Of a stretch of 64,000 nucleotides of DNA, positions 16,462 through 49,755 are shown piece after piece (positions within the stretch are counted from its first letter, which is position 1; each line of letters starts with the position of its first letter). A model generated the notes under the pieces. That model did not search any database, had not been told where the DNA came from, and worked only from the letters and a program-made list of their open reading frames with translations. Position numbers and translations under genes: made by a program. This stretch comes from a virus. The stretch is taken from positions 1 to 64,000 of IMG/VR virus record IMGVR_UViG_3300008459_005489, one strand, 5' to 3'.

Positions 16462-17010
16462 CTAGTCTGACGCCGAATGAATTTCTATCAAAGGAATATG
16501 GTCGGGATGCTGTATGACGTAATCAATTATTTTAGCAATACTATCTAGTGCTAACCATTTTTCATGTCCAGGTTTGCCATCATTTAGTCCGCCGGCAATT
16601 ATATGTGAAGTTTTAATTCCTTTTTTGTTGTTCAATTGCAGGCTCCGGTCTCGCAATGCTCGCTTTTGTATACTGTATCCACCATAAATGCTATCTATGC
16701 GACCATCATCAACTCCCATCCACTCAGCAGTGCTTCCGATGTTTATAATATGCCCTTTGATATTGTGCTTGGACCAAACATGCCATGTGGTTTCAAGCAA
16801 TGCTAATTGTCCACCATTGCATATAAAACTGCTGTTGATAAAAACATTGTAGTTTTTAATCTTGTTTTGAAAAAAGTCTTCACTGCCCGAATCCCAAAAT
16901 CTCAAATCGTATCCAGTTGCCCTGCTAGCAAATTCTGCCTGAGGAAATTTTCTTTTGATAGCCGAAGCCACAGTAGTATGATCGGGGTTTCCTGTGCAAA
17001 GTATATTCAT
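16462..17010 (-). CDS. Short-chain dehydrogenase/reductase-like protein
   Basis: 182 residues. INIGSTAEW supplies the catalytic Ser region and YSIQK the Tyr-x-x-x-Lys pair; the N-terminal Rossmann glycine motif is reduced (CTGNPDHTTVASAIK), so cofactor use is uncertain. Shorter than typical SDRs (about 250). AT-richer than its neighbours. The start overlaps the radical SAM gene stop (ATGA), suggesting the two act in one pathway. Confidence 0.75.
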   Translation of the reverse strand: MNILCTGNPDHTTVASAIKRKFPQAEFASRATGYDLRFWDSGSEDFFQNKIKNYNVFINSSFICNGGQLALLETTWHVWSKHNIKGHIINIGSTAEWMGVDDGRIDSIYGGYSIQKRALRDRSLQLNNKKGIKTSHIIAGGLNDGKPGHEKWLALDSIAKIIDYVIQHPDHIPLIEIHSASD

Positions 17011-18146
17011 GATATAATTTTACTCCATTCGGGGGTTAACGCCTTGAAATCTGTACCTCGTATGTGATTCAATGCAGATATATTTTTCCAAAAATGATCA
17101 TGGGATTGGTCGCTTGTTTTCAAGGATTGCACCAACAGGAGTAATTGGTTGTAGTTTTGAAATTTGCGTTGTAGCGTGGCATGACCCGACTCTGACAGAT
17201 AATCAAGTTCAAAATCACCAACTGCTTTTTGAAAAATTAAATTAGTTGGGTCGCCATATCTGTTTGAAGAAAAATTTTCATTCCACCAATCCCATACTTC
17301 GTTTAAATAAAAAAAGTTAAGATAACTCCATGTACAATTTATATTGAACATATGGTTGTGTGGCATATTAGCATAGAACCAATCCAAGGTAGAGTTGACT
17401 TTGTTCCAGTCTGCTCCAGTGCGTTGGTAATCAAATCGAGCACCAACATCATCAATGCTGAAATACAGTTCAATCAACTGACATTTCTCCCATAATTGTA
17501 AAATTTCATCCGACACTGTTTGCGTAGCATTGGTATTATAAAATACTCTAACATCTGACAGTCCTTTTACTTGTTGAATTTTTTGCAAAAGTCTAACATG
17601 ATTCTCAGACAACAGTGGTTCGCCACCACCATGAAAATGCACATGCTTGATATTTTCCAAAAGAGCCTGGTCAGTTATTTCTAATTGTTCATTTTTTTTG
17701 TATTGAAACGGTGCAATATCATATGTGGGGTGTAATTTTTGATAATCAGGAATCCATTGTGAACTGTTTTGAGGTCCGCATATGACACATTTCAAATTGC
17801 ATAAATTTCCAACACTGTAGTCAATACCTGTTGGCCCAGACAACTCAATGTTGATGTCTTTATGGTATTCTTCGTATAGTTTTTTTGATCCTTGTCGTCG
17901 GCTTTCTATCCCAGCATCTTCGGCACTGTAGCAGGCCTGGCATCCTGGTATAAAGGCATCAGTTTCAACACATTTTTTTAGCTCTAAGTGTTCGGGGCTA
18001 TTCCACACATCAGTCAAATTGAACTCTGATGATGTTTTGATATATCCATTGTAAAAAGAACAAGGATTGTAACCCAGTTCACCGTTGTGAGACCATATGG
18101 CAAGATTTTTATAAATTTCGTAGCAAAAGTATTTTTTATTTTTCAT
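17007..18146 (-). CDS. Radical SAM protein with flanking Cys clusters (twitch/SPASM-like)
   Basis: 379 residues. The radical SAM CxxxCxxC motif is CNLKCVIC (about residues 117-124), preceded unusually by an about 110-residue N-terminal part with its own cysteines (CSF, then CQACYSAED), which could bind an auxiliary cluster as in twitch/SPASM enzymes. HFHGGGEPLL is the GGE motif that binds SAM. The substrate is unknown. The start ATG at 18146 forms TGATG with the upstream stop; a GTG three bases earlier is possible. Coupled with the SDR-like gene. It does not resemble PqqE in layout, although a pqqA gene lies 5 kb away. Confidence 0.88.
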   Translation of the reverse strand: MKNKKYFCYEIYKNLAIWSHNGELGYNPCSFYNGYIKTSSEFNLTDVWNSPEHLELKKCVETDAFIPGCQACYSAEDAGIESRRQGSKKLYEEYHKDINIELSGPTGIDYSVGNLCNLKCVICGPQNSSQWIPDYQKLHPTYDIAPFQYKKNEQLEITDQALLENIKHVHFHGGGEPLLSENHVRLLQKIQQVKGLSDVRVFYNTNATQTVSDEILQLWEKCQLIELYFSIDDVGARFDYQRTGADWNKVNSTLDWFYANMPHNHMFNINCTWSYLNFFYLNEVWDWWNENFSSNRYGDPTNLIFQKAVGDFELDYLSESGHATLQRKFQNYNQLLLLVQSLKTSDQSHDHFWKNISALNHIRGTDFKALTPEWSKIIS

Positions 18147-18451
18147 CACAGGTATTTAAGTATGAACCATGACTGTGAGGTTTCATTGTAGAAGTCCAAA
18201 TGCACTTGATATTCATAGTGGAATCCTGTTGGCGCCGCGCCCCAATGATAACCATCCAACACACCAACAGTTGGACGATTGGGTTCAAGTCCCTGATGGT
18301 CACGTGCAGTAAATCCCAGTTCACGCCGCATGATGTGCCGCATGCGTATGGCAGTGCCAAAATCTTGAGCCAAGCGGTCCAGCACCATGGACCACTCATC
18401 AGGGTTGTGAAAGATGATAAGATTCCGCTTGGTTGTTACCCGATAAGACAT
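18146..18451 (-). CDS. Hypothetical protein, 101 aa
   Basis: No family recognised; contains LDRLAQDFGTAIRMRHIMRRELG (helical) and an aromatic C-terminal half. TGATG overlap with the radical SAM gene, TAATG with the upstream gene. Confidence 0.68.
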   Translation of the reverse strand: MSYRVTTKRNLIIFHNPDEWSMVLDRLAQDFGTAIRMRHIMRRELGFTARDHQGLEPNRPTVGVLDGYHWGAAPTGFHYEYQVHLDFYNETSQSWFILKYL

Positions 18452-18835: not shown

Positions 18836-19927
18836 TCAGCTGGCTTGCAAAATGTACTTGCCGTAACGAGCATGGAACTCGTCAAACACCTTGATCTTGG
18901 TAGGCTGCATCGGCAACATATAAGTTGTCAGTGCAATACGAGCACCCAACACCACCAGTTCAGTCTCAAAGTTCTTCATCATATATGCCAAAAAGTTATT
19001 GCTCATTTCATGGAACTCTTTGTCTGACACTTTCTTTTGCTCAATGGCGTCTTTGAGTTCGTAGCACATGCTGATGACCAAACTGTACATGGCCGACACT
19101 TCTTTCACATTCAAGTCTGTTACCTTGCCACTCAAGATGTCCGAGGGCTGGGGCATGCGTCCGGACACTTTGCGGTGTGCTTTGAATTTCACAGCAAGGC
19201 CCTCGCCCACAGTACCTGCAATCAGGTTCATTTCTGTGTCCTCGTCACATTCATCCGCCAACAGCTCACTCACAAAACTCCAAGAGCGCGGTGTTGCAAA
19301 TGCACGTGAACTGGACTTGGCATCAAAGTCGTACAAGTCCTGCTTGGCAAAACTCAAGTAACCCACCACGTCTTTGTGGATGTTGTGATTCACAGCCCAC
19401 TCTTGCCATGATGCAAAGTCTACACGCATTTCCTGGTGAACAAAACGATTTGCCAGCGGAGTCGGCATGCGGAAGGTAACACCTTTGTCTGATTCACGAT
19501 TACCTGCTGCCACCATCACCACATTGTCAGGCAGTTTATACTTGCCAATGCGTCGATTCAAAATCAACTGATATGCGGCACTCTGCACTGACGCTGGAGC
19601 TGAGTTCATCTCGTCCAAAAACAGCACCACCACAGGGTACTGGCTGGCAGTTTCTTCATCGGGCATTTCCACAGGGGGAGCCCAATCCATCTTGCCAATG
19701 TCTTTGTTGTAAAACGGAATACCACGAATGTCTGTGGGTTCCATCTGTCCCAGGCGCAAGTCAATCATCAAGCCACCAAGTTCTTCTGTGATGCCAGCCA
19801 CAACTTCGCTCTTGCCGATGCCGGGAGGACCCCACAAAAACATAGGACGCTTTTTCTTAAAAGCATGCATGATGGATTTACGAACTTGGGCACTGGTTAC
19901 TGTACGTGCATCTGATACTGCTGACAT
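18836..19927 (-). CDS. MoxR/CobS-type AAA+ ATPase
   Basis: 363 residues. Walker A GPPGIGKSE (about 33-41), Walker B VVVLFLDEMNSA (about 97-108), sensor 1 region VVMVAAGNRES and an arginine-finger-like PLANRF. MoxR and CobS ATPases act on partners that carry VWA domains to remodel proteins or insert metals; the HExxH/VWA protein 2.4 kb downstream is the obvious candidate. AAAGGAAA precedes the ATG, and a promoter lies 41 bases upstream. Confidence 0.92.
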   Translation of the reverse strand: MSAVSDARTVTSAQVRKSIMHAFKKKRPMFLWGPPGIGKSEVVAGITEELGGLMIDLRLGQMEPTDIRGIPFYNKDIGKMDWAPPVEMPDEETASQYPVVVLFLDEMNSAPASVQSAAYQLILNRRIGKYKLPDNVVMVAAGNRESDKGVTFRMPTPLANRFVHQEMRVDFASWQEWAVNHNIHKDVVGYLSFAKQDLYDFDAKSSSRAFATPRSWSFVSELLADECDEDTEMNLIAGTVGEGLAVKFKAHRKVSGRMPQPSDILSGKVTDLNVKEVSAMYSLVISMCYELKDAIEQKKVSDKEFHEMSNNFLAYMMKNFETELVVLGARIALTTYMLPMQPTKIKVFDEFHARYGKYILQAS

Positions 19928-19967
19928 GGGCTGTTTCCTTTCGGGGGTTGTAGTAAGTTAAGTCGTT

Positions 19968-19996
19968 ATTGTAGTTGATTGTGAATTTGTTGTCAA
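19968..19996 (-). promoter_or_regulatory. sigma70-type promoter for MoxR operon
   Basis: TTGACA, 17 bp, TACAAT on the minus strand; the -35 box overlaps the stop region of the 59-aa upstream gene. Confidence 0.78.
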
Positions 19997-20172
19997 CATG
20001 CATAGTTGCAGTTTTGCAACAGGTCATCGCGCACAATTTCTGCAATCATCTCTTGTGCTTCGCCTATGCTGAAGCCGTATTCTTGCACAACAAAATCAAT
20101 AACTTGATCTTCAGTGCAGTTGAGGCTGATCATTTCTTGAATGTCAGTGTAAAGTCTGCTCATCTGTCCCAT
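19993..20172 (-). CDS. Small acidic protein, 59 aa
   Basis: Helical and acidic (DIQEMISLNCTEDQVIDFVVQ). Starts at TAATG with the upstream gene, GGAG eight bases before. Ends at the MoxR promoter. Function unknown. Confidence 0.65.
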   Translation of the reverse strand: MGQMSRLYTDIQEMISLNCTEDQVIDFVVQEYGFSIGEAQEMIAEIVRDDLLQNCNYAC

Positions 20173-20363
20173 TATAGGTTCTCCTCCATTAATTGGTCAT
20201 CAATTTCACTCAACATGTCGTGCAACAAGCCACTGATCTCATCAAAGTCCACGCACTCGGGTTCAAACAGTCTTCGAAACTCTGTTATCTTTTTAGTCAA
20301 TACTTCAACAGCGTCAACCAGTTCGTCGAATCTGGCTTCAGCCTGTTCTAACTTCTCGCTCAT
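20172..20363 (-). CDS. Small coiled-coil protein, 63 aa
   Basis: Glu/Leu-rich heptad-like sequence throughout (EKLEQAEARFDELVDAVEVL). The ATG overlaps the upstream TAA. The junction sequence before it (GATCGGGAGACAGCATAATG) is duplicated exactly at 40702-40721. Confidence 0.68.
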   Translation of the reverse strand: MSEKLEQAEARFDELVDAVEVLTKKITEFRRLFEPECVDFDEISGLLHDMLSEIDDQLMEENL

Positions 20364-20635
20364 TATGCTGTCTCCCGATCTGTGATGTAAGTGAATAAAA
20401 CAAATTTGGCACGGTTCAGCAGTTGTCGCTGATCTTCTATGGTGTTGAAGTCGGGCTGTTCGTATGCCATCATTTCCTGTGCATCGCTCAGCATACTTGC
20501 CACAACCATTGCAGGTCCTGAAAAACGGAACGTGCTACCGGACTCCACTGCTTCACGCATCTGTGCTTCAGTGCAACCGTACATGCCCACTTCACGGATT
20601 TCTTTAGTTGTCAGTCCTTCAAACGCTTTTCTCAT
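20363..20635 (-). CDS. Hypothetical protein, 90 aa
   Basis: Start ATG 20635 chosen because AAGGAG lies seven bases upstream; the longer frame would place the promoter inside the gene. Contains TTKEIREVGMYGCTEAQMREAV and ends DRETA, an ending shared with the protein at 40704-40916. Function unknown. Confidence 0.7.
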   Translation of the reverse strand: MRKAFEGLTTKEIREVGMYGCTEAQMREAVESGSTFRFSGPAMVVASMLSDAQEMMAYEQPDFNTIEDQRQLLNRAKFVLFTYITDRETA

Positions 20636-20665
20636 CTCAGGCTCCTTTTTGCTTTGTATGCCACT

Positions 20666-20694
20666 ATTATAACAGTTTGGCAATTATTGGTCAA
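20666..20694 (-). promoter_or_regulatory. sigma70-type promoter, cassette copy 1
   Basis: TTGACC, 17 bp, TATAAT, followed by a leader (TGGCATACAAAGCAAAAAGG with AG next) that recurs at 20985-21013 and 41315-41343. Confidence 0.85.
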
Positions 20695-20702
20695 CCAAAA
20701 TG

Positions 20703-20954
20703 TCAACTGTATTGTGTGGTATCTTCCATCGCCACGGTCAAGCCCAGTTGTTCCAAGACTTCCCACTCAGGTTTTTCACGCCAGGTTTGAATGTATGCCT
20801 CTTTGACGTCGTGGGCCAATGCCCGGGCAAATTTCTTACTCTGCATGATCTTTTGCATCTTGCGGGCGTCAACGATTTCAACGCCTGGCAGATTTTCAAA
20901 CACTGCCTGCAGTTCTTTTTCCGAGAATTCAATGGTCACTGTGATCTTGTTCAT
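20703..20954 (-). CDS. Hypothetical protein, 83 aa
   Basis: Begins MNKITVTIEFSEKELQAVF; beta strand then helices. AAAAGGAG site before the ATG, driven by promoter cassette copy 2. It stands alone between two promoters. Function unknown. Confidence 0.72.
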   Translation of the reverse strand: MNKITVTIEFSEKELQAVFENLPGVEIVDARKMQKIMQSKKFARALAHDVKEAYIQTWREKPEWEVLEQLGLTVAMEDTTQYS

Positions 20955-20984
20955 TGCGAGCTCCTTTTTGCTTTGTATGCCATT

Positions 20985-21013
20985 ATTATAGCAAATTGGG
21001 AATTTCCGGTCAA
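20985..21013 (-). promoter_or_regulatory. sigma70-type promoter, cassette copy 2
   Basis: TTGACC, 17 bp, TATAAT, with the shared leader ending AAAAAGGAG. It begins immediately after the terminator at 21015-21040. Confidence 0.85.
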
Positions 21014-21014
21014 G

Positions 21015-21040
21015 AAAAACCCTGCATCGAGCAGGGTTTT
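21015..21040 (-). terminator. Rho-independent terminator after the phosphoesterase gene
   Basis: On the minus strand a 7-bp ACCCTGC/GCAGGGT stem with a TCGAT loop is followed by five T residues. Confidence 0.85.
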
Positions 21041-21065
21041 AAAAGGTAGTACTTGAGTATTACTG

Positions 21066-21680
21066 TTAATCCACATGGTGTTCGGTCTTGAAATTGCCGT
21101 TTTTGAATCCAATCTCTCCACCTTCTGCTTGGATGCGCCGGTACACATCATCCAACAATATGGGTGCAAAGTCAGTCTGTTCCACGCACACACAATGGTA
21201 TCGCGGATCGATCTCAGTGCCGTACAATACTTCACCGGTCTTGGCGTTGACACCACGGGCCCGTTTCACACGACTGGCGTGCAAGTGTCCGTGAATGTTG
21301 GTACCAAAGCGACCCAACGAGGCCTCATGCACAGGGATATGACTCAAGATCATTCCGTTCATCACATGGTATGCCCGCAACTCACGAAAGTATTCGCGAT
21401 ACTCCACATCCGGAAAGATATCATGGTTGCCGCGAATCAATACCTTGTCCCCGTTCAAGCGAGCCAAAGTTTTCAACGCACGGCGGTTGATAACCACGTC
21501 ACCCAAATGGTACACTTTGTCAGTGGGCCGGACTCGTGCGTTCCACTTTGCAACCATGTCCTCATCCATCTCCTCGGGAGTGTCGTAAGGACGCAACTTG
21601 GTCACGCCATCGTTGCGAGTGAACTTGCACACACCCATGTGTCCAAAATGTGTGTCACTTACCAAAAACGTTGCTGGCAT
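21066..21680 (-). CDS. Calcineurin-like metallophosphoesterase
   Basis: 204 residues with all metal motifs in order: SDTHFGH (DxH), LGDVV (GD), IRGNHD (GNHD), ILSHIPVH and IHGHLH (GHxH). Family members cleave phosphodiesters or phosphomonoesters with a bimetal centre; substrate here unknown. Monocistronic, with its own promoter, AGGAG site and terminator. Confidence 0.93.
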   Translation of the reverse strand: MPATFLVSDTHFGHMGVCKFTRNDGVTKLRPYDTPEEMDEDMVAKWNARVRPTDKVYHLGDVVINRRALKTLARLNGDKVLIRGNHDIFPDVEYREYFRELRAYHVMNGMILSHIPVHEASLGRFGTNIHGHLHASRVKRARGVNAKTGEVLYGTEIDPRYHCVCVEQTDFAPILLDDVYRRIQAEGGEIGFKNGNFKTEHHVD

Positions 21681-21705
21681 ACGTCACTCCTTTCTTTAAA
21701 GTGTA

Positions 21706-21734
21706 ATTATAACAGATTGGGCATTTCTGGTCAA
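21706..21734 (-). promoter_or_regulatory. sigma70-type promoter for metallophosphoesterase
   Basis: TTGACC, 17 bp, TATAAT; leader of about 20 bases carries GAAAGGAG before the ATG at 21680. Confidence 0.85.
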
Positions 21735-21737
21735 GCA

Positions 21738-22208
21738 CTACTTGGGTACTACTTCCAACCAAGTGTGATCGCCCATGTACTTAACCTGTGCCTGGTACTC
21801 GTAATCCTCAGGTGCACTGCTTGACCAGTCGTCAGGACCATGCGGTGTCAACAAGGTATGTTGCCGGCGCCGGTCCCAGGCCAACCAATACACATTGCCC
21901 ATCACAGGACTGAATTGGTACACTGCCGCATGCACTAGATCTGTAACGGCTAGTCTGCGTCGAATGTCATCTGCTTGCTTTTGCAACACACTCACCAGTT
22001 CCATGATTCGATCATACTCTTGCTGGGCATACATCCTGGCATGATTGATCATGAGATCTTTTTGCTGTGTGACTGGTACTAGATCAAATGCAGGACCCAG
22101 TGTACTGGTGGCGTAGGGTGTGACATTACGGTTGAAGAAGTGCACCAAGGTATTGCCGGTGCTGACATCAAAGCTATCGCGACCCTTGGCGCTATTGCTT
22201 TCATCCAC
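21738..22208 (-). CDS. DUF2452-like protein, 156 aa
   Basis: The C-terminal half (YQFSPVMGNVYWLAWDR, then LLTPHGPDDW and MGDHTWLEV) fits the DUF2452 pattern of small uncharacterised proteins; the centre is helical (DRIMELVSVLQKQADDIRRR). Function unknown. Ends just before the phosphoesterase promoter. Confidence 0.72.
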   Translation of the reverse strand: MDESNSAKGRDSFDVSTGNTLVHFFNRNVTPYATSTLGPAFDLVPVTQQKDLMINHARMYAQQEYDRIMELVSVLQKQADDIRRRLAVTDLVHAAVYQFSPVMGNVYWLAWDRRRQHTLLTPHGPDDWSSSAPEDYEYQAQVKYMGDHTWLEVVPK

Positions 22209-22210
22209 TG

Positions 22211-22477
22211 TTACAGGGGCTGTTGTTTGTTGCGTCTGCGTGGCTGAACTTCAGTCTCACGATAGATGTAGTCTCGGCCAATTTTACCTGCTTCAATTTC
22301 CAACATAGCTGTGACGCCGGCACTGTGTGCAAATTTAAGTGTGATTTTAGGCATGTCACCGCGACTCAGTTCCCGCATGCGGCGTGCGCCAGCCAGGACC
22401 AAATCGTATCGGTTACCGATCATGGCCACTGCCTGTTCTGAGTTGAGTCCTGCTGTTCTGTCTGCTGGGTGCTTCAT
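22211..22477 (-). CDS. rpoZ: RNA polymerase omega subunit homologue
   Basis: 88 residues, the usual length of omega. SEQAVAMIGNRYDLVLAGARRMREL (about 16-40) aligns directly with the bacterial omega core ([22 protein letters not shown]), and VTAMLEIEAGKI (about 57-68) with the second conserved helix. Omega binds the beta-prime subunit, aids RNA polymerase assembly and is a site of ppGpp action. AAGGAAG lies ahead of the chosen ATG; the longer frame would run into the upstream gene. ATGA overlap with the zinc-binding protein gene. A phage copy could replace host omega. Confidence 0.85.
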   Translation of the reverse strand: MKHPADRTAGLNSEQAVAMIGNRYDLVLAGARRMRELSRGDMPKITLKFAHSAGVTAMLEIEAGKIGRDYIYRETEVQPRRRNKQQPL

Positions 22478-22764
22478 GGTTCTTCCTTGGTTGATAATCC
22501 GTTTGAATGCTTGGCTGTTTGTTGTTCCAAGTCTTGGAACAGGCGCTTTTCTTGTTGGGTCAGTCTGTCCTTGTGTGTCTTGCGTGGATTGCCACACATG
22601 AAACATCGTGGTTGACCACAGTCCATGGCATGACGCTTGGCAAACTTATGCGGCTGACCAATGTTTGAACCAGCGGCTCGGGCAATTTTAACTTGTCTAG
22701 ACACAGCCACATCAGTTTTGTGTCGGCGTCGGCTGTTGACAAATCGGGCTAGGTCGTTGCTCAT
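22474..22764 (-). CDS. Small basic protein with zinc-ribbon-like Cys motif
   Basis: 96 residues, Lys/Arg-rich, with C(8)GQPRCFMCGNPRK: three clustered cysteines plus nearby histidines that could bind zinc. Probably nucleic-acid binding; function unknown. Overlaps rpoZ by four bases, which puts it in the same transcript. Confidence 0.72.
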   Translation of the reverse strand: MSNDLARFVNSRRRHKTDVAVSRQVKIARAAGSNIGQPHKFAKRHAMDCGQPRCFMCGNPRKTHKDRLTQQEKRLFQDLEQQTAKHSNGLSTKEEP

Positions 22765-22925
22765 CCGCCGCGTCCCACTGTGCGTTGCACAGGTCTACCT
22801 GCAATGGCGGGAGTGCCAGATCGCTTGGTTTTGCCTGATTTGATTTTGGCATCAGGATGAGCAGCCGCATGTTTTTTGGCCAATGCGTCTCGAAGTGTAT
22901 CAGTCAATTTTTTAGGTTTAGTCAT
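22761..22925 (-). CDS. Very basic small protein, 54 aa
   Basis: Begins MTKPKKLTDTLRDALAKK and is rich in Lys, Arg, Ala. ATG 22925 chosen because a longer frame crosses the promoter. First gene of the rpoZ transcript. Likely nucleic-acid binding by composition only. Confidence 0.68.
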   Translation of the reverse strand: MTKPKKLTDTLRDALAKKHAAAHPDAKIKSGKTKRSGTPAIAGRPVQRTVGRGG

Positions 22926-22950
22926 ACTGTTATTTACGTCCTTGGTGTAC

Positions 22951-22979
22951 AGTATAACAAAGAATCCATTGAGTGTCAA
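22951..22979 (-). promoter_or_regulatory. sigma70-type promoter for rpoZ operon
   Basis: TTGACA, 17 bp, TATACT on the minus strand, directly after the pqqA terminator. Confidence 0.82.
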
Positions 22980-22982
22980 GAG

Positions 22983-23003
22983 AAAAGGGCCGACGGCCCT
23001 TTT
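22983..23003 (-). terminator. Rho-independent terminator after pqqA
   Basis: AAAGGGCC/GGCCCTTT stem with a three-base loop, then TTCTC on the minus strand, 20 bases after the pqqA stop. Confidence 0.82.
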
Positions 23004-23022
23004 GGTTTAATGCTTTTGCAAA

Positions 23023-23097
23023 TTAGCGTGTCATAAAATACATGGTAATTTCAAAACCATAACGCATATCTTGCGCGGCTGGTGTAGTCCATTTCAT
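23023..23097 (-). CDS. pqqA: PqqA, pyrroloquinoline quinone precursor peptide
   Basis: 24 codons. The peptide starts MKWTTPA, contains RYGFEITMYF and ends in Arg, the hallmark of PqqA: Glu16 and Tyr20 fall exactly where canonical PqqA places the two residues that PqqE cross-links to build PQQ. A strong AAAGGAG site lies seven bases before the ATG, a TATAAT box about 40 bases upstream and a terminator just downstream, so it is a dedicated monocistronic unit. No pqqB-E is present in the window; host enzymes would have to process it. PQQ is the cofactor of periplasmic methanol, glucose and alcohol dehydrogenases. Confidence 0.93.
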   Translation of the reverse strand: MKWTTPAAQDMRYGFEITMYFMTR

Positions 23098-23138
23098 AGT
23101 AATCTCCTTTGGTTAAACATACTGTTGTATGTATGACT

Positions 23139-23167
23139 ATTATACTACACAATCCATCAAGAACATA
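23139..23167 (-). promoter_or_regulatory. Probable pqqA promoter
   Basis: Consensus TATAAT at 23139-23144 (minus). At 17-bp spacing the -35 hexamer is only TATGTT, so the promoter may be activator-dependent. The leader contains a small CATAC/GTATG hairpin before AAAGGAG. Confidence 0.6.
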
Positions 23168-23219
23168 TCCTGATAATCATGATTTTGTGTAAGTGGAACT
23201 CACTAAGTATTTACACTAG

Positions 23220-23657
23220 TTACTGTGTTTCTTTATGTGCAGCCAAGGCCTTGACAAAGCGGTTGGCGTGACTACGTTCTGCTTTGGCCAGTGTTTCAAA
23301 CCAATCAGCAATTTCGTCGTGGCCTTCATCACGTGCAGTTTTGGCCATGCCTGGATACATGTCAGTGTATTCATGTGTTTCACCGTGGATAGCACTTTCC
23401 AATGCTTGGGTAACAGTCCGGGCAGTCATTCCTGTACCAGGATCACCTGAACCACCGTCGATCAGGTATTCCATGTGACCATGTGCATGTCCAGTTTCGC
23501 CTTCGGCAGTGCTACGGAACAAGGCAGCAACATCGTTGTCTCCGGCCACGTCAGCCATGTTTGCAAAGTACAAGTACCGTCGGTTGGCCTGTGATTCACC
23601 GGCAAATGCTTCTTTTAAATTCAATTCAGTTCGGGTTCCTTTTACGGATTGTGTCAT
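23220..23657 (-). CDS. Rubrerythrin-like ferritin-domain protein
   Basis: 145 residues forming the four-helix diiron domain: [13 protein letters not shown] (first Glu), [13 protein letters not shown] (ExxH), [11 protein letters not shown] and [11 protein letters not shown] (second half ligands). The C-terminal rubredoxin domain of classical rubrerythrins is missing. Such proteins reduce hydrogen peroxide and protect against oxidative stress. TAGGAGG precedes the ATG; own promoter. Confidence 0.92.
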
Positions 23658-23683
23658 GGGTTCCTCCTATTAGTGACATCACT

Positions 23684-23713
23684 AGTATATAGTATATCTA
23701 TGGCGCTGGTCTA
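23684..23713 (-). promoter_or_regulatory. Promoter for rubrerythrin gene
   Basis: TAGACC, 18 bp, TATACT on the minus strand; a second TATACT lies 7 bases upstream of the first. Confidence 0.6.
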
Positions 23714-23720
23714 TGGATTT

Positions 23721-23743
23721 TGCCATTGTATTTTTTAATGGCA
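23721..23743. promoter_or_regulatory. Inverted repeat between divergent genes
   Basis: TGCCATT, nine-base AT loop, AATGGCA, midway between the rubrerythrin promoter and the plus-strand aminotransferase. It could be an operator or a hairpin; no regulator is identified. Confidence 0.4.
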
Positions 23744-23791
23744 GTGTTTGACATTATCTATTGTGTTTTACCAAAATTTATTATATAATGT

Positions 23792-24664
23792 ATGATGAAT
23801 AATTTTCCTGCATGGCGCAATGGCGCCTATTGCAATGTCGCTGATCTCTCATTGAGCATACTGGATTTGGGTGTGATACACTCTGATGCCACATACGATG
23901 TGCTGGCTGTGAAGCATGGACGAGCACTACAACTCAATCAACATATCAACAGATTAGAGCAAAGTTGCCGTGGTTGGCGACTGCCCATGCTGTACACCAG
24001 CGAAGAACTAAAAACTGTTGTGGCAGAGTTATACCACCGCAGTGAATTGGAAGCGGCGTTTGTTTGGTTTGCAGTCACAAGAGGTATTCCTGAATCAGGC
24101 ATGCCTAGAGATCTGACTCGTTGTGACACACAAGTCATGGCCTATGTCAAACCCTATTACGGATTTAATGTGACCAACACCGCCAGACTGTGTTTGAGCA
24201 CAACTCCGAGAGTTCCATCAACGTCTATCAATCAGAGCTACAAGAACTGGGCCTGGCAAGATCTAACACAAAGCCAATGGCAGGCTCAAGACCGTGGATA
24301 TGACAGTGCAGTGCTGTTGGATCACAATGGGCATTTGACCGAAGGACCTGGATTCAATGTCGGTGTGGTAATTGATTCAGTCATACACATACCACGACAA
24401 AATGTCCTGGGTGGTATTACCATGCAGCTTGTGCAACAGTTGTGTGATGCTCATGACATCAACTATAAATATTCTGACATTGATGCAGGCATGCTGGAAG
24501 CTGCCACAGACATGTTTGTTACCAGCACAGCCGGTGACATTGTGCCTGTTACTGAATTTGAATCTCAAAAGTTTTCAGTATCTGCTGAGCAATACACGCT
24601 GAAAAAACTCATACAAAAAGCCTGGACCTTGGATGGTTATTCCACACTATTACGTACCGTTTGA
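23792..24664 (+). CDS. Class IV PLP aminotransferase (BCAT/DAAT type)
   Basis: 290 residues. SINQSYKNWAWQDL carries the Schiff-base lysine (about residue 151), GYDSAVLLDHNGHLTEGPGFNVGVV is the class IV signature with the Glu that contacts the cofactor, and DMFVTSTAGDIVPV closes the phosphate-binding site. Likely transaminates a branched-chain or D-amino acid, or acts as a lyase. A TATAAT box ends two bases before the first ATG and five before the second (23795), so the transcript may be leaderless from the second. First of three overlapping plus-strand genes. Confidence 0.9.
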   Translation: MMNNFPAWRNGAYCNVADLSLSILDLGVIHSDATYDVLAVKHGRALQLNQHINRLEQSCRGWRLPMLYTSEELKTVVAELYHRSELEAAFVWFAVTRGIPESGMPRDLTRCDTQVMAYVKPYYGFNVTNTARLCLSTTPRVPSTSINQSYKNWAWQDLTQSQWQAQDRGYDSAVLLDHNGHLTEGPGFNVGVVIDSVIHIPRQNVLGGITMQLVQQLCDAHDINYKYSDIDAGMLEAATDMFVTSTAGDIVPVTEFESQKFSVSAEQYTLKKLIQKAWTLDGYSTLLRTV

Positions 24665-25538
24665 ATCAGGGAACATTTATGTTCACACAGTCACTGCACC
24701 TGGCAACGGCCGTGCTGTGGTAATCCTGCCTGGCCGTTCAATGAGTGGCAGAAACTTTTGGCATTTTGATCCAGGCACTGGCGTCACACATGCTGAACAA
24801 TTGGCTGCACAAGGTGTGGATGTGTACATGGTAGATGCCCTGGGATTTGGCAACAGCACAGGTATGTCGCGTTCAGACTACAATAGAATTTACTTTGCCA
24901 AACAAATTGCGGCTGTGATCGAAACCATGCCACACTACAATAACATTGCTGCCTTGGGTTTTTGCAATACCACGGTAGTGCCTTTAGTGTTAGCAGCACA
25001 AGGCTTGGTCAATCGAGCGGTGGTAATGAGCCCCACTGTGTTTGATACCACATGGTGTGAACAAAACCCTGGCATGATAAGACTGTGGCAACGCACTGCC
25101 ACAGAGTCAGGCTACTGGAGCACCAGTTTGGATGTGTTGATAGAACAACAACTTGCCAAGATCAGTGATAGAGAAATAGGCGAGCCACAGCGTGTTGCAC
25201 CATGGTATCAAAAAATGCAAACACTCACACAAGGCTATACTTCTTACAATTTAGATTCGTGGACAGCACCCAGAACATGGTGGTTAGACAGAATCACGTG
25301 GCCTTTGTTGCATGACAGTCACGGCTTTGACACAGATGCATTGGCTGGAGTGCCAATCTTGTTCACTCGTGGTGAATATGATGTGGATGTTCCACAAGAT
25401 TGGTTTGATCGTGCATGTGGATACTTTGGTAACGCTGATTTGCAAACATACACCATACCTGGCGTCACACACTTTGCACTGTGGGAACATGGTTATCAAG
25501 CCGCTGTGGATCGTGTGCAGGAGTTCTTGCTGTCATGA
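24633..25538 (+). CDS. Alpha/beta hydrolase with Cys nucleophile
   Basis: 301 residues. The oxyanion-hole segment is VVILPGRSMSG; the nucleophile elbow reads LGFCNTTVV, placing Cys (about residue 111) where Ser is usual, as in dienelactone hydrolase. Downstream FTRGEYDVDVP supplies the acid and PGVTHFALWEHG the His. The start lies 32 bases inside the aminotransferase gene and the stop overlaps the next start. Could be a thioesterase-like or acyltransferase activity; substrate unknown. Confidence 0.85.
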   Translation: MVIPHYYVPFESGNIYVHTVTAPGNGRAVVILPGRSMSGRNFWHFDPGTGVTHAEQLAAQGVDVYMVDALGFGNSTGMSRSDYNRIYFAKQIAAVIETMPHYNNIAALGFCNTTVVPLVLAAQGLVNRAVVMSPTVFDTTWCEQNPGMIRLWQRTATESGYWSTSLDVLIEQQLAKISDREIGEPQRVAPWYQKMQTLTQGYTSYNLDSWTAPRTWWLDRITWPLLHDSHGFDTDALAGVPILFTRGEYDVDVPQDWFDRACGYFGNADLQTYTIPGVTHFALWEHGYQAAVDRVQEFLLS

Positions 25539-26770
25539 TTTACGTTCCAGATTCAGTAGGTGAGGTATTATACAGCCCACTAGGGCATTACACAGTGGGC
25601 GATAATTGGTTCTACAGCAACAGAGATGCACTAGAGGCCAGTCACCGTACCGGCCAACCTGTGGCTTGGCATTACTATGATGATGTTTGGGCTACTGCAC
25701 ATGCCGCTGGACACTGGCGCAATCAAAATCTACGCGAACTATATTATGCCAGAGCAAGACAAATACGTGAGCAGTATGACTATGTGGCGGTGTTGTTCAG
25801 TGGCGGCTGGGACAGTCGCAACATAATTGAAAGTTTTGCCGCACAAGGACTGCGCATAGATGATATCATTGTGTTGACCACACCAGAACTAGAAAACACA
25901 ACAGACTTCAACAATCAAGACCCCACAAACTGGTACGGTGAGATCATGTATCATGCAGTGCCCTATGCTGAACGTTATGCTGCCGCACATCCGGGCACAG
26001 GAGTGATCAAGATAGAGTGGCTGGATCGTGTGGTAAATGCTTATCGTAATCCTGAGCAAGTGTTCAAGGACAGTCGCCCCAAGCCTGGTGTGTTCTTTGG
26101 CCGTTGGCTCAGCGTAGCAACAAATGCTCAGCTAGAAAAACGAATAGGCAACCGTCGTGCCACATTACTAACTGGGCTAGATAAGCCTTGTGTGATGCGC
26201 ACTGGAGACTCTTACCGAGGATTTTTTCCCGAAGGCCTAATGCGTGTGTACACCTATTGCACAAAAAGCAACGGGTTCCCAGACAATGTGATATGGGAAC
26301 CATTTTATTGGACGCCCAACATGCCTGAACTGGCCATACGTGGTTGGTATGAACTGATAGATTTGTGTCGTCGAGATGCTGTGGTAGCACATGCTCATGA
26401 TTCCACATTGAGCATGGAACAACGTGCCACAGCCAAAATGAGTCGCTATGTACAAGATGCCATGCGCAGACATTTGTACCCAGGGTTTGATGCCGGTGCC
26501 TGGCAAGCAGACAAACAAAACGACTATGGTTTTTTTATGCAATTCGAGTTGCCAATATTGAATTTGCTGGCGCAAAAACAAGTACCGGTTAGAGAAGTGT
26601 TGGGTGAAGTTTTGGCAGAAACTGCTCAACGCATTGGTGAGAGTTCTGTTGCCATCGGCGACCGAACCAACAGCGGTCTGGTGCCTTGGGTTGACATGCC
26701 TGGTGGGCATACTGTGTTAGATTACAAAACCTTTACCAGTTGTGTGATCAATTTAGATGGCCGGCCCTGA
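25535..26770 (+). CDS. PP-loop ATPase (asparagine-synthetase-like)
   Basis: 411 residues from the ATG at 25535, chosen from the ATGA overlap. VAVLFSGGWDSRNIIESFAAQG (about residues 79-100) is the PP-loop (SGGxDS) used by N-type ATP pyrophosphatases such as asparagine synthetase, QueC and beta-lactam synthetase to adenylate a substrate. No glutaminase domain is present. Length and the rest of the sequence do not fit QueC. Together with the aminotransferase and hydrolase it forms a three-gene pathway of unknown product. Its stop codon lies inside the antisense tRNA-Arg gene. Confidence 0.8.
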   Translation: MIYVPDSVGEVLYSPLGHYTVGDNWFYSNRDALEASHRTGQPVAWHYYDDVWATAHAAGHWRNQNLRELYYARARQIREQYDYVAVLFSGGWDSRNIIESFAAQGLRIDDIIVLTTPELENTTDFNNQDPTNWYGEIMYHAVPYAERYAAAHPGTGVIKIEWLDRVVNAYRNPEQVFKDSRPKPGVFFGRWLSVATNAQLEKRIGNRRATLLTGLDKPCVMRTGDSYRGFFPEGLMRVYTYCTKSNGFPDNVIWEPFYWTPNMPELAIRGWYELIDLCRRDAVVAHAHDSTLSMEQRATAKMSRYVQDAMRRHLYPGFDAGAWQADKQNDYGFFMQFELPILNLLAQKQVPVREVLGEVLAETAQRIGESSVAIGDRTNSGLVPWVDMPGGHTVLDYKTFTSCVINLDGRP

Positions 26771-26832
26771 CGGAATCGAACCGCCACCGCTTGTTTCGAA
26801 GACAAGCATGATATCCATTTCACCAAGGGCCG
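26758..26832 (-). tRNA. tRNA-Arg (TCG)
   Basis: Acceptor CGGCCCT/AGGGCCG, anticodon loop CTTCGAA, G73 and encoded CCA. Its 3' end overlaps the convergent PP-loop gene by 13 bases. Confidence 0.93.
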
Positions 26833-26850
26833 GTGTTTGCTAAGTAACGT

Positions 26851-27552
26851 ATGACTGAACTATTATATACCCTGATTGCAACACATATCACCATTGTTGC
26901 TGTCACACTATTCCTGCACAGAAGCCAAGCACACAGAAGCGTACAGTTTCACCCTGTAGTGTCACACTTCTTTAGATTTTGGCTGTGGCTCACAACTGGC
27001 ATGGTCACAAAACAATGGGTAGCGGTACATCGCAAGCATCACAGATTCAGCGACGAGCCGGGTGATCCACACTCACCGCATGTGTATGGAATCAAACAAG
27101 TTTTCTTCAAAGGAGCAGTGCTATATCATGCGGCATCAAAAGATAAAGTCATGGTTGATACATATGGTGTTGGTACTCCTGCTGATTGGATTGAGCACAA
27201 CCTATACAGTGCTCACTCCAGACTTGGCATTGGCATTCTCTTTTTGTTCAACATCATCGTCTTTGGTTGGGTTGGCGCCATAATCTGGGGCATACAAATG
27301 CTATGGATCCCATTATGGGCCGCTGGTGTTGTGAATGGCATTGGACACTGGTGGGGGTATCGCAATGGTCAAACAAAAGATCAAAGCCAAAACATTGTGC
27401 CTTGGGGCATTGTGATCGGCGGCGAAGAACTACACAACAATCATCACCTTAATCCTGCCGGTGCTCGACTCAGCAGACACTGGTGGGAGTTTGATATTGG
27501 ATGGATGTACATCCGATTGCTCAGTGCCTTGCAGTTGGCCACTGTGAAATAA
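26851..27552 (+). CDS. Fatty acid desaturase (acyl-lipid/acyl-CoA delta-9 type)
   Basis: 233 residues with four hydrophobic segments and the three histidine boxes of membrane diiron desaturases: HRSQAH (about 23-28), HRKHH (about 60-64) and EELHNNHH (about 191-198). These enzymes introduce a cis double bond into acyl chains using oxygen and reduced ferredoxin or cytochrome b5. Somewhat shorter than cellular homologues (about 270-300). A phage copy would alter host membrane fluidity or decorate a phage product. Confidence 0.93.
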   Translation: MTELLYTLIATHITIVAVTLFLHRSQAHRSVQFHPVVSHFFRFWLWLTTGMVTKQWVAVHRKHHRFSDEPGDPHSPHVYGIKQVFFKGAVLYHAASKDKVMVDTYGVGTPADWIEHNLYSAHSRLGIGILFLFNIIVFGWVGAIIWGIQMLWIPLWAAGVVNGIGHWWGYRNGQTKDQSQNIVPWGIVIGGEELHNNHHLNPAGARLSRHWWEFDIGWMYIRLLSALQLATVK

Positions 27553-27553
27553 C

Positions 27554-27627
27554 TGGTGCTCTCACCGAGAATTGAACTCAGGATTCAGTCTTACCAAGAC
27601 TGTGTTATACCACTTAACTACAAGAGC
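27554..27627 (-). tRNA. tRNA-Thr (GGT)
   Basis: GCTCTTG/TGAGAGC acceptor, anticodon loop TTGGTAA, A73, encoded CCA. Confidence 0.93.
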
Positions 27628-27633
27628 AAAAGA

Positions 27634-27707
27634 TGGAGCAGGATACCAGAATCGAACTGGTGACTGGACGTTGGCAACGTTCTATTTTCCCCCTAAACTA
27701 ATCCTGC
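27634..27707 (-). tRNA. tRNA-Gly (GCC)
   Basis: GCAGGAT/ATCCTGC acceptor, anticodon loop TTGCCAA with one A-C mismatch in the anticodon stem, encoded CCA. Confidence 0.9.
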
Positions 27708-33976: not shown

Positions 33977-34074
33977 CATAGAAAAACACACTCTCAGGAA
34001 TCGAACCTGCTACCCTGTAGTACGGGGCTGTATCCAACGGACCATCGCGCATGGTCTGAGTGTGTTTATCTATG
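33977..34074 (-). ncRNA. Structured spacer 8 with tRNA-like interior
   Basis: CCATAGAAAAACACACTC pairs with GAGTGTGTTTATCTATG. Inside, on the minus strand, CAGG-TTCGATT-CCTG is a T-arm and GACC/GGTC a D-stem-like hairpin; with CACACTC/GAGTGTG as acceptor it resembles a tRNA, but no valid anticodon arm or CCA is seen. Possibly a decayed tRNA. 33901-33976 holds nothing recognisable. Confidence 0.5.
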
Positions 34075-34188
34075 TTGTCGCGGAGGCCGAGTCTACAAAC
34101 TCGCTTCGAGTCCCTTGGTTCCAACCCTTTTTGCATCTCTGCGTGGGTTCTTACATTCGAGGACCGCCTTGCTTTCTAACTAGTCTCT
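34075..34188 (-). other. Untranslated leader of the right tRNA/spacer block
   Basis: About 114 bases between the promoter at 34189 and spacer 8. Contains CGAGT/ACTCG and GGGTT/AACCC short stems. No gene seen. Confidence 0.4.
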
Positions 34189-34217
34189 AGTATAACATCT
34201 TGTGTTATTCTGGTCAA
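34189..34217 (-). promoter_or_regulatory. sigma70-type promoter, right tRNA block (proximal)
   Basis: TTGACC, 17 bp, TATACT. Reads leftward into the spacer/tRNA block from tRNA-Glu onward. Confidence 0.8.
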
Positions 34218-34287
34218 CTTGTTTTGCAAAATCCCTTTGCTTTGTAGGGTCTTTGCAAACTTTGCTGTTGCTTTCTGACTAGTCTCT

Positions 34288-34316
34288 AATATAACATCTC
34301 TGCCATTATTGGTCTA
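34288..34316 (-). promoter_or_regulatory. sigma70-type promoter, right tRNA block (distal)
   Basis: TAGACC, 17 bp, TATATT. The downstream sequence (AGAGACTAGT.AGAAAGCAA) duplicates that after the proximal promoter, so the two arose by tandem duplication about 99 bp apart. 34218-34287 has no gene. Confidence 0.65.
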
Positions 34317-34325
34317 GCCGAAAAA

Positions 34326-34353
34326 GAAAAACCCGCCTAGATAGCGGGTTTTT
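34326..34353. terminator. Terminator after orphan peptide 2
   Basis: AAAAACCCGC, seven-base loop, GCGGGTTTTT; symmetric, so it could act in both directions. Confidence 0.82.
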
Positions 34354-34373
34354 GCTTGAGTAGTACTTTTGTA

Positions 34374-34472
34374 TTAGGTACCACTGCTCCCGCTGTTAGT
34401 ATAGGCCAGCGCCTCACGTGTATAATCATGTGAGGGTATCTCAAAGGACAGTTGGGTGTATTGCTTGTTCAT
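34374..34472 (-). CDS. Orphan peptide 2, 32 aa
   Basis: Starts MNKQYTQLSFEIP and ends AYTNSGSSGT; no known family. Private promoter with TATAAT five bases before the ATG, so leaderless, and a terminator 20 bases after the stop. The Ser/Gly/Thr-rich tail is notable but no processing enzyme can be assigned. Confidence 0.5.
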   Translation of the reverse strand: MNKQYTQLSFEIPSHDYTREALAYTNSGSSGT

Positions 34473-34477
34473 AGTTT

Positions 34478-34506
34478 ATTATATATGACAGTGAGTCGAA
34501 AGTCAA
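34478..34506 (-). promoter_or_regulatory. sigma70-type promoter, leaderless, orphan peptide 2
   Basis: TTGACT, 17 bp, TATAAT; only five bases to the ATG at 34472. Confidence 0.78.
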
Positions 34507-34532
34507 TGATTTGTTAGATGTCTTTTGCCAAT

Positions 34533-34724
34533 TTATGTTCTTCCGGGTGGAGGTTTTGTAGTACCTAGTTGTCGCTCAAACGAACCAGGTCCTGCCAGTT
34601 CGGGTGGTAGTGGTGGCGGAACATAACGTTCCTTCACAGGCTTCTTGCCAAAAATTGATTCGTGTCTGGTGGCCAGTTCTTGTTGACTGACCACTGATGG
34701 ACGGGGTCTTGTGCCTTTGCTCAT
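34533..34724 (-). CDS. Pro/basic-rich small protein, 63 aa
   Basis: Disordered-looking, with YVPPPLPPELAGPGS and a basic ends. GAGGAG site before the ATG and a consensus promoter upstream. Function unknown. Confidence 0.65.
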   Translation of the reverse strand: MSKGTRPRPSVVSQQELATRHESIFGKKPVKERYVPPPLPPELAGPGSFERQLGTTKPPPGRT

Positions 34725-34743
34725 GGTGTCTCCTCAAATGTGT

Positions 34744-34772
34744 AGTATATATTAGTGTTGCCAGTGGGTCAA
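34744..34772 (-). promoter_or_regulatory. sigma70-type promoter for 63-aa protein
   Basis: TTGACC, 17 bp, TATACT, with a GAGGAG-bearing leader to 34724. Confidence 0.8.
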
Positions 34773-34780
34773 CACTTTTA

Positions 34781-35365
34781 TCAAATCACTTGGGCAATAC
34801 GAGCCAAGATGATTTCAACCACTTGATTGCTGATCACAACTTCATAGTGGTTCAGCGGAAGTTCTACCAATTCAAAATCTGTGCGATATTGTTGGCTTTC
34901 TATTGTGACCACACCGTCATTGGGTTCTTGTATCCAGGGACTGGCTCCGCGTGTGGTCACAACCTGTGTCCAACATGGTGGTGCAGGCAACTTTTTGGCC
35001 GCAGCCATGGGATGACTTGCAGGACCAATGTCTTTCATCAGCCGGTTAAACGGCAGGAAGTAACGTGCATAATCTGCTTGTTTGCTGCCACCATAAGGTG
35101 TGCTCAAGCTCACACCGCCCACAGTGGTCGCACTGTAGTGGTTGGCCAGGTGCAGGGCATAGATACCGCCCAGGCTGTGACTGACGAAGAACAGTCGATC
35201 CTGATCATCCAGTTGGCCCTTCATTTCTGCCAGGTTGTGATCAAATCCTGCTTCGCTGTTGTATTCCAGGGCTAGGTCGGGCTCTTCTGTGTGATCCCGC
35301 ACAAACTGTCTGATGTGTGTGAAACTTTCTGCTGTGGCTGATGCCCCGTGTATGTAAACTATCAT
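34781..35365 (-). CDS. Alpha/beta hydrolase (lipase/esterase-like)
   Basis: 194 residues. YIHGASATAESF is the HG oxyanion motif, FVSHSLGGIYAL the nucleophile elbow (Ser about residue 63), EPNDGVV the acid and LNHYEVV the His. Resembles small PGAP1-type or triacylglycerol lipases. No signal peptide. Located just downstream of the tmRNA terminator. Substrate unknown. Confidence 0.88.
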   Translation of the reverse strand: MIVYIHGASATAESFTHIRQFVRDHTEEPDLALEYNSEAGFDHNLAEMKGQLDDQDRLFFVSHSLGGIYALHLANHYSATTVGGVSLSTPYGGSKQADYARYFLPFNRLMKDIGPASHPMAAAKKLPAPPCWTQVVTTRGASPWIQEPNDGVVTIESQQYRTDFELVELPLNHYEVVISNQVVEIILARIAQVI

Positions 35366-35382
35366 TTGAATATTTATTGTAG

Positions 35383-35405
35383 AGAAACCCGCCGAAGCGG
35401 GTTCT
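35383..35405 (-). terminator. Terminator after the tmRNA
   Basis: AACCCGC-TTCG-GCGGGTTT followed by CTCT on the minus strand, with a stable TTCG tetraloop. Confidence 0.8.
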
Positions 35406-35702
35406 GAGTTTCTGTTACGAGGTATGTCTTACCCTAGGCAGTGTTTAGGCTGCCAAAGCGAACTGTTCGTCGTTTGCATTTACGGTTTTTGCTTGATTAA
35501 CGGTCATCGCCTACCGTGCTGTCCACTCTGTTACTTGTTGCCCTGTCGAAACTATGCACCCCCATCAAAAGAATTATTGACTAACATTCCCCCCATACTT
35601 CATTTCTGGTGCGGCTAATGCAAAAACTCTTTTGGTGGAGGTGGGGGGATTTGCACCCCCGTCCAGAACACTTTTCTCTCGGCTTCATACAACAATAACT
35701 AC
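35406..35702 (-). ncRNA. ssrA: Circularly permuted (two-piece) tmRNA
   Basis: Read on the minus strand, the acceptor half comes first (about 35702-35633): GGGGG-TGCAAAT-CCCCC T-arm, then CACCTCC, A73 and encoded CCA. After a 69-nt intervening segment (35632-35564) comes the coding half, starting GGGGGTG at 35563. GGGGGTG pairs with CACCTCC and includes a G3-U70 wobble, the alanine identity pair. The next bases (CATAGTTTCGACAGG) match the tmRNA 5' consensus. CAACAAGTAAC of the coding half pairs with GTTATTGTTG of the acceptor half (P2). The tag frame (35445-35477) reads ANDEQFALAA and stop. Released by a terminator. It is transcribed from the promoter at 37089 with three tRNAs and two proteins. 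Confidence 0.95.
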
Positions 35703-36316
35703 TATTTAATCAAATGTGGCCATAAGTTGCCATATTCATCCAATGGTTCAGGTTTAAACCTGATGCTTGCGGCTACTCTCAATTGGGTGTGATGAGTTTC
35801 TGGGCGATGTAAAATATTGACATTGATCCAATGAGGAATATTAGAATCACATCGTCCAATTTCTACTGCTGTACGAGGATCCACAACTCTAGCTATTTCA
35901 ACAATAGAAGTACCAATAACATAGTCTGGTAAACTTTGATCTTTGATCTTGCCATCATACCACACAGTGTAGGTGTCTTCACAGTTGATCAGTGGAATGT
36001 TCAGTGCAATATCCACACCTACATCCACATGCGGAGGAAATTCACGAGTGCTTTCAACAGAGATAAACGTTATTACAAAAAAATTGTTGTATATACCCAG
36101 TCGTTGGAACTCTTGCATCAGAGTAGTACAAGTGTTGTGCATGAGTACTTTGTAGCTGATTTCCACAGCGGTGCTGGTATATGGAACCAGTGTGTCTTTC
36201 TTGGTTTGAATAAACAACTTCAATAATTCTTTTTGTATTGCAGGTAATAATTCTGGATTTAGGCTGGGCTCATGATACAGCCAATCAGGAGTGGTATTTC
36301 GATATTTGTAAACCAT
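35702..36316 (-). CDS. Putative 2OG oxygenase-like (cupin) protein 2
   Basis: 204 residues from ATG 36316; the much longer frame overlaps the next gene and is rejected. FPPHVDVGVDIALNIPLINCEDTYTVWYDG gives an H-x-D pair, and HTQLRVAASIRFKPE a basic distal strand, similar to the protein at 30277. The stop codon abuts the 5' end of the tmRNA acceptor piece. Function unknown. Confidence 0.62.
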   Translation of the reverse strand: MVYKYRNTTPDWLYHEPSLNPELLPAIQKELLKLFIQTKKDTLVPYTSTAVEISYKVLMHNTCTTLMQEFQRLGIYNNFFVITFISVESTREFPPHVDVGVDIALNIPLINCEDTYTVWYDGKIKDQSLPDYVIGTSIVEIARVVDPRTAVEIGRCDSNIPHWINVNILHRPETHHTQLRVAASIRFKPEPLDEYGNLWPHLIK

Positions 36317-37088: not shown

Positions 37089-37117
37089 ATTGTAACAGGA
37101 ATTTTATTTATTGTCAA
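37089..37117 (-). promoter_or_regulatory. sigma70-type promoter of tRNA-tmRNA operon
   Basis: TTGACA, 17 bp, TACAAT. Drives tRNA-Met, tRNA-Arg, tRNA-Leu, two proteins and the tmRNA, ending at 35383. The -35 overlaps the end of the radical SAM gene. Confidence 0.82.
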
Positions 37118-49356: not shown

Positions 49357-49755
49357 TTAACTGATCTCTGTGCGCCCATCGCCGATGTCTCTGGTTCGAA
49401 CATATTGTGCACCAGAGTTACGAATGGCTTGTTCTTGTTCCCATGTTTCCATCACAACGTGTCTGCACACATTTTGGAACCACCGATCCACCAGATCCGA
49501 GTCTGCGTCTGTGGGTTTCATCATGTAACCAGCCTTGACCAATCTAGCAATGAATATCTCATTCCAGTCCAGTTCAAATGCGCCTTGGTGCAAGTTGTTG
49601 GGATCAATGTCCATGGTTACAATGGCCACATAAGGCTCACCTTTTTCAGTGGCAAGTTCTTTGGCGGTTTTTTCTGGTGCTCGGGGCACACGCAGAACCT
49701 TTTCTTTTTCCTCTTTTGCAGGAGGTTTTGTTTTAAATCTATCAAAGAATCTCAT
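49357..49755 (-). CDS. Conserved T4-like phage protein, 132 aa
   Basis: ATG 49755 (TAATG with queE). Contains EKTAKELATEKGEPYVAIVTMD and FELDWNEIFIARLVKAGY, a combination common in T4-like cyanophages. Function unknown. Confidence 0.8.
   Translation of the reverse strand: MRFFDRFKTKPPAKEEKEKVLRVPRAPEKTAKELATEKGEPYVAIVTMDIDPNNLHQGAFELDWNEIFIARLVKAGYMMKPTDADSDLVDRWFQNVCRHVVMETWEQEQAIRNSGAQYVRTRDIGDGRTEIS

Follow-up and report, generated by a model that had tools for sequence, protein, structure and literature searches.

The DNA analysed in the current work, a stretch of 64,000 nucleotides (hereafter the window) which forms the first part of a 69,734-base IMG/VR virus record, carries a 75-bp gene that is, judged by its sequence, a true pqqA, with none of pqqB-E found in the window beside it. 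Searches of phage isolates and viral metagenomes indicate that this gene is not unique, the same peptide being widespread and usually missed, and it is probably a substrate-supply auxiliary gene, the remainder of the pathway being performed by PqqBCDE of the host.

Identity of the gene and its genomic setting

The features referred to below are located in the window as follows:

23023..23097, minus strand: pqqA, 24 amino acids plus stop (PF08042 and TIGR02107 profile matches)
23104..23109, minus strand: ribosome-binding site AAGGAG, 6 nt before the ATG (read from the sequence)
23118..23135, no strand assigned: inverted repeat CATAC-N8-GTATG in the pqqA leader (sole perfect match in the window)
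23139..23144, minus strand: TATAAT -10 hexamer upstream of pqqA (read from the sequence)
22983..23003, minus strand: intrinsic terminator hairpin AAAAGGGCC-GTC-GGCCCTTTT downstream of pqqA (predicted fold)
23220..23657, minus strand: rubrerythrin gene, upstream of pqqA and used as syntenic anchor (Pfam PF02915, 92 bits)

The peptide encoded at positions 23097-23023 (minus strand) is MKWTTPAAQDMRYGFEITMYFMTR. A first-pass annotation, made from the letters of the DNA, had recognised in it the layout of a PqqA, including Glu16 and Tyr20, and had proposed a search against the PqqA families as a check. This search returned matches above both curated cut-offs, with 33.5 bits for the Pfam PqqA profile PF08042 (E 4e-8; cut-off 21.1) and 32.9 bits for the NCBIfam equivalog TIGR02107 (E 4.1e-8; cut-off 20), scores which are far above chance for a 24-residue open reading frame, and bears out the recognised layout; a PqqA search of 14 well-known genomes, performed as a control, gave no match. 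Glu16 and Tyr20 are spaced E-x3-Y as cross-linking by PqqE requires, and the cross-linked residues carry the same numbers in Methylorubrum PqqA (PMC10906245). The window peptide thus shares with the PqqA of bacterial pqqABCDE clusters its length, the Trp-Pro N-terminal part, the R-x-G-F-E-[IV]-T-M-Y core and the two reacting residues, and its gene differs from theirs in having no adjoining pqqBCDE. Because the nearest cellular peptide found is only 71-75% identical, no recent host donor was identified. Among viral copies, that of locus L308 is identical in DNA sequence to the window copy, while that of locus L091 encodes the same peptide with four synonymous and no nonsynonymous differences.

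With regard to expression signals, the strong ribosome-binding site attributed to the gene in the first-pass annotation is readily seen, as AAGGAG at its 6-nt distance from the start codon. The TATAAT hexamer is present as well, approximately 40 nt before the ATG, but the consensus promoter scan found no acceptable -35 sequence for it and did not report the box, so that by consensus the promoter is reduced to a -10 box. The inverted repeat of the leader, when one mismatch or fewer is allowed, occurs in the window as often as expected by chance; similar inverted-repeat arms precede pqqA in the loci L091, L310 and L315. The hairpin behind the gene is a real one (-14.5 kcal/mol, z -3.07), yet its description as a dedicated terminator did not hold, since in L309, a relative without pqqA, a hairpin of this kind immediately follows the rubrerythrin gene, which makes the terminator common to the rubrerythrin unit. 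The pqqA unit is therefore located between rubrerythrin and the shared terminator, which is probably the older element. The rubrerythrin neighbour is 93% identical in L074/L310 and in L091. In L310 and L091 rubrerythrin is followed directly downstream by the gene of a small protein bearing rubredoxin-like Cys motifs, which is missing in the window.

The first-pass annotation had called the genome phage-like and had named a host chromosome as the finding that would count against its proposal. No structural protein was recognised among the proteins scanned in the 64-kb window, which carries tRNAs, a tmRNA and many metabolic genes, and these properties would be compatible with host or plasmid DNA. 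Such a reading is almost certainly incorrect: positions 19223-27657 of the window (8.4 kb) are 100% identical to a 146,212-base IMG/VR viral contig (the source of L308) at the same coordinates, and over approximately its first 48 kb the window runs colinearly with the initial 52 kb of the contig G001 (148,328 bases; source of L074), by whose portal and capsid genes the reading is refuted. This relative encodes a portal protein (phrog_213) and a major head protein (phrog_138), which we take to be of the T4 type, together with SbcC, 29 tRNAs and a permuted tmRNA, the phrog_213 and phrog_138 genes being located outside the part matched in the window. The record is, on these comparisons, that of a large phage of freshwater type and not host DNA.

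The window itself encodes 30 tRNAs as well as a tmRNA which is permuted and of betaproteobacterial type. This two-piece tmRNA (35354-35746, minus strand), located beside the 30 tRNA genes, specifies the tag ANDEQFALAA, the corresponding tag of G001 being ANDELFALAA. An RNA polymerase Rpb6/omega-domain protein, resembling the omega subunit, is encoded at 22211-22606 (minus strand; PF01192, 33.8 bits), and a class IV aminotransferase at 23792-24664 (plus strand) represents probably a recent insertion or loss, as no counterpart was found in the colinear G001.

Occurrence and conservation of phage pqqA

Three tblastn runs employing different PqqA queries (E up to 10) were performed against 50,697 phage records, and all three queries returned the same 12 records. 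Nine of these are isolates of Methylophilales phages (four of Melnitz, and one each of P19250A, whose host is LD28, Venkman, MEP301, MEP401 and MEP402) which represent six phage types, and every such isolate found carries pqqA. A tenth genuine record among the 50,697 is that of the uncultured podovirus ctXG6705. Two records named 'Acinetobacter phage MD-2021a' (CAKLQF020000010.1 and CAKLQH020000055.1; L004 and L010) were rejected, being bacterial chromosome with pqqABCDE; L004 also has a polyphosphate kinase gene (ppk). No genuine match was obtained in this collection for phages of other named hosts, including SAR11 phages and phages of Pseudomonas, which is a PQQ-making genus. SAR11 phages include relatives of Melnitz (PMC9004378), and Venkman, MEP301, Melnitz and MEP401/402 serve as OM43 phage isolate references in PMC13037479.

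In five of the six phage types pqqA is without any annotation, in keeping with the earlier expectation that the gene would be smaller than most gene callers detect; its absence from the annotations of Methylophilales phages is attributed to its length of only 23-25 codons. In Melnitz and ctXG6705 an open reading frame on the wrong strand has been annotated over pqqA, and these hypothetical frames opposite the gene (L002 2967-3062, corresponding to Melnitz gene 152, and L005 2067-2195) are probably spurious.

IMG/VR was scanned with two degenerate DNA patterns, for which the numbers of loci given here represent lower bounds. The pattern for GFE[IV]TMY occurred at 120 loci or more, all 120 of the matches listed being PqqA open reading frames, and the pattern for the window subtype likewise at 120 loci or more, where among the matches listed 116 of 120 specify full-length PqqA and the remaining four are read with a shortened N-terminus. 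The flanks of the listed window-subtype loci (at least 120) contained no pqqB, pqqC, pqqD or pqqE. Contigs carrying pqqA among the IMG/VR matches listed reach 365 kb. When the motif is extended by a [VIF]M[NT][KR] tail, its occurrences in GTDB genomes are almost confined to Methylophilaceae.

Since core residues are conserved by construction in loci retrieved by a pattern, these were left out of the selection analysis, which was performed on the tblastn and neighbour-anchored sets only. The latter set consists of 252 loci fetched by means of adjoining genes so as not to condition on the motif. Across 43 distinct phage pqqA sequences, pN/pS was 0.22 and dN/dS approximately 0.12, and the core Trp, Pro, Arg, Gly, Phe, Glu and Tyr were invariant in all 43. 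The gene was found near Venkman gp26 in at least 55 of 80 loci, near the window-type rubrerythrin in at least 16 of 80, near the Melnitz OB-domain gene in at least 8 of 80 and near MEP401 gp67 in at least 3 of 12, counts which are lower bounds because some loci terminate short of where pqqA would be expected. All pqqA copies in the 252 loci scored 51 bits or more and none scored between 14 and 50, which indicates that pqqA is either intact or absent, with no decaying copies. Within the lineage of the window, only 2 of 20 large rubrerythrin-bearing records (examined as whole records) carry pqqA, and the gene is thus not essential. Sequence comparison accordingly identifies pqqA as an accessory gene which is under purifying selection where present.

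Probable substrate supply and competing readings

The first-pass annotation had noted no other pqq gene nearby, and this was upheld by a tblastn search of the 64-kb window, in which none of PqqB-E was found, and by a PqqE profile search of the whole 69.7-kb record, in which the sole radical-SAM match reached 20.3 bits, far under the cut-off of 381 bits. Examined as a possible pqq biosynthesis operon, the window pqqA has no pqqBCDE next to it. Similarly, PqqB, C, D and E were absent from the flanks of at least 120 pqqA-bearing viral loci, while PqqB-E were clearly matched in that search at approximately 25 host loci of the same database. The PqqE profile yielded no match above its cut-off in 47 whole pqqA-bearing phage records, that of the window included; in Methylotenera mobilis 13, taken as a positive control, the profile recovered two genuine PqqE. 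Methanol dehydrogenase was found in just one of these 47 records (G007), and the stand-alone pqqA is the common form. The record in question (the 72-kb source of L062) combines pqqA with a PQQ-dependent alcohol/methanol dehydrogenase at 34049-35731 (608 bits), and resembles the Lake Baikal case described below.

Considering that one PqqA is consumed for each PQQ while the enzymes are reused, the 75-bp precursor gene would by itself be the cheapest means of supply, the precursor being the only gene whose supply determines product in proportion. During infection the phage would transcribe pqqA from its own leader, perhaps also by read-through from rubrerythrin, and host PqqD would bind the phage PqqA, which host PqqE would then cross-link before it is trimmed. 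PqqB and PqqC of the host would finish the trimmed product to PQQ, which would keep methanol dehydrogenase (in methylotrophs) or other quinoprotein dehydrogenases loaded after host expression has been shut off. A cell-free extract of Gluconobacter supplied with PqqA peptide forms PQQ at 70-80% conversion (PMC9851590). In Acetobacter, pqqAB raised PQQ by only 29%, versus eightfold for the whole cluster (PMC7936290), from which it follows that the gain provided by a phage pqqA may be modest and may depend on the enzymes of the host.

Two of the properties looked for in an auxiliary gene were found, in that pqqA resides in a true phage genome, is under purifying selection and is intact across relatives. 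The possibility that the peptide acts instead as a decoy or inhibitor, occupying host PqqD and PqqE and thereby slowing PQQ synthesis or diverting SAM and reducing power, would agree with phages lacking the rest of the pathway and with the retention of the N-terminal part of PqqA (Trp, Pro, Arg), which is the region binding PqqD. However, the reacting Glu and Tyr would be dispensable in a peptide serving for binding only, yet both are invariant in the 43 sequences, and hosts themselves multiply pqqA, which leaves this possibility an unlikely one. The gene may also be thought of as passive cargo, picked up from a host by chance and of little effect on phage fitness, given that it is patchy among close relatives, that L309 has a clean site without it and that small genes are cheap to carry; nevertheless the dN/dS of approximately 0.12, the lack of decayed copies and the recurrence of pqqA in unrelated phage types, at different genome positions, render such an origin of the pattern improbable.

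It was also considered that a phage-encoded enzyme might convert the PqqA-like peptide into some other radical-SAM product, as the window contains radical SAM genes at 17007-18149, 37104-39158, 49755-50600 and 51307-53313. Their candidacy as PqqE was rejected, since none of the encoded proteins is PqqE-like at the cut-off and the families matched are of the twitch-domain, B12 and QueE types. Furthermore, the small pqqA-bearing phages P19250A, Venkman and MEP301 show no match whatever to the PqqE model, and a dedicated phage enzyme is for these reasons highly improbable. Supply of substrate to the host enzymes is retained as the preferred interpretation.

Hosts and precedents

The first-pass annotation had proposed that PQQ supply is boosted in a methylotrophic or other PQQ-dependent host. 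An auxiliary role in PQQ-dependent (methylotroph) hosts fits the distribution of the gene, because every Methylophilales phage isolate found carries pqqA, but the methylotroph part of the proposal is not specifically favoured by the window PqqA, which resembles that of other Burkholderiales about equally (71% identity, versus 68% to Methylophilaceae PqqA). Similarity matches of the window tRNAs and tmRNA are spread over Burkholderiales with no clear family, and the host of this phage is placed, from such matches, no finer than Betaproteobacteria/Burkholderiales.

PqqA was present in all 100 Methylophilaceae genomes sampled, at a median of 4 copies (range 1-12), with 12 pqqA and 2 pqqE in Methylotenera mobilis 13. 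In genomes of this family (for example G029 and G460) a single chromosome contains as many as 12 scattered pqqA, G029 having two pqqE. In a Hyphomicrobium-type methylotroph pqqA is present in five copies, of which three are scattered, one of these being strongly expressed (PMC9851590). As hosts carry several scattered pqqA, an extra dosage of precursor is a host habit which the phage gene repeats. The scattered copies of Hyphomicrobium (PMC9851590) and of Methylophilaceae are like that of the window in being single genes located off the operon and raising precursor dosage, and are unlike it in being chromosomal, the window copy being carried by a phage genome.

Phage PqqA as a kind is already known from one earlier report, published in 2020, of the Lake Baikal methylotroph phage VP_266, which encodes PqqA and methanol dehydrogenase (PMC7678222). 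There, too, an auxiliary role in supplying PQQ, in Methylophilaceae, was proposed for phage PqqA, but the pair was treated as one case, whereas the window pqqA stands alone. Neither the presence of pqqA in all cultured Methylophilales phages nor its common stand-alone form was found in the open-licence PubMed Central literature searched, and a phage pqqA goes unmentioned in the publications describing Melnitz, MEP301, MEP401/402 and Venkman. That an auxiliary gene carried by all cultured phages found for an abundant group of hosts should be unannotated there reveals a blind spot.

Cyanophage auxiliary genes of the psbA type offer a comparison, since in that system a fast-turnover component of the host is supplied by many phage types of one host group. 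The likeness lies in this supply; the differences are that pqqA provides a consumed precursor peptide and not an enzyme or structural protein, and that it measures 75 bp, below the usual gene-calling length. On this evidence, PQQ precursor supply would be a step repeatedly taken over by phages of methanol-oxidising bacteria. The chances are about even that phages have a general strategy of providing, for a ribosomally made cofactor, the precursor which is consumed, pqqA being commonly carried alone by phages of PQQ-dependent aquatic bacteria (Methylophilaceae and other Burkholderiales). If it is, PQQ supply during infection would be partly under phage control, a control missed since the gene is too short for gene callers. 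The published OM43 isolate systems Venkman, Melnitz, MEP301 and MEP401/402, together with P19250A, can be used at once for tests.

With respect to other genes of the window, two large radical SAM proteins of the B12-dependent type are encoded at 37104-39158 and 51307-53313 (both minus strand), their best matches being PhpK-like and KedN5-like methyltransferases, below cut-off. A QueE-like gene at 49755-50600 and a GTP cyclohydrolase gene at 57962-58705 (both minus strand) suggest 7-deazaguanine modification of the phage DNA.
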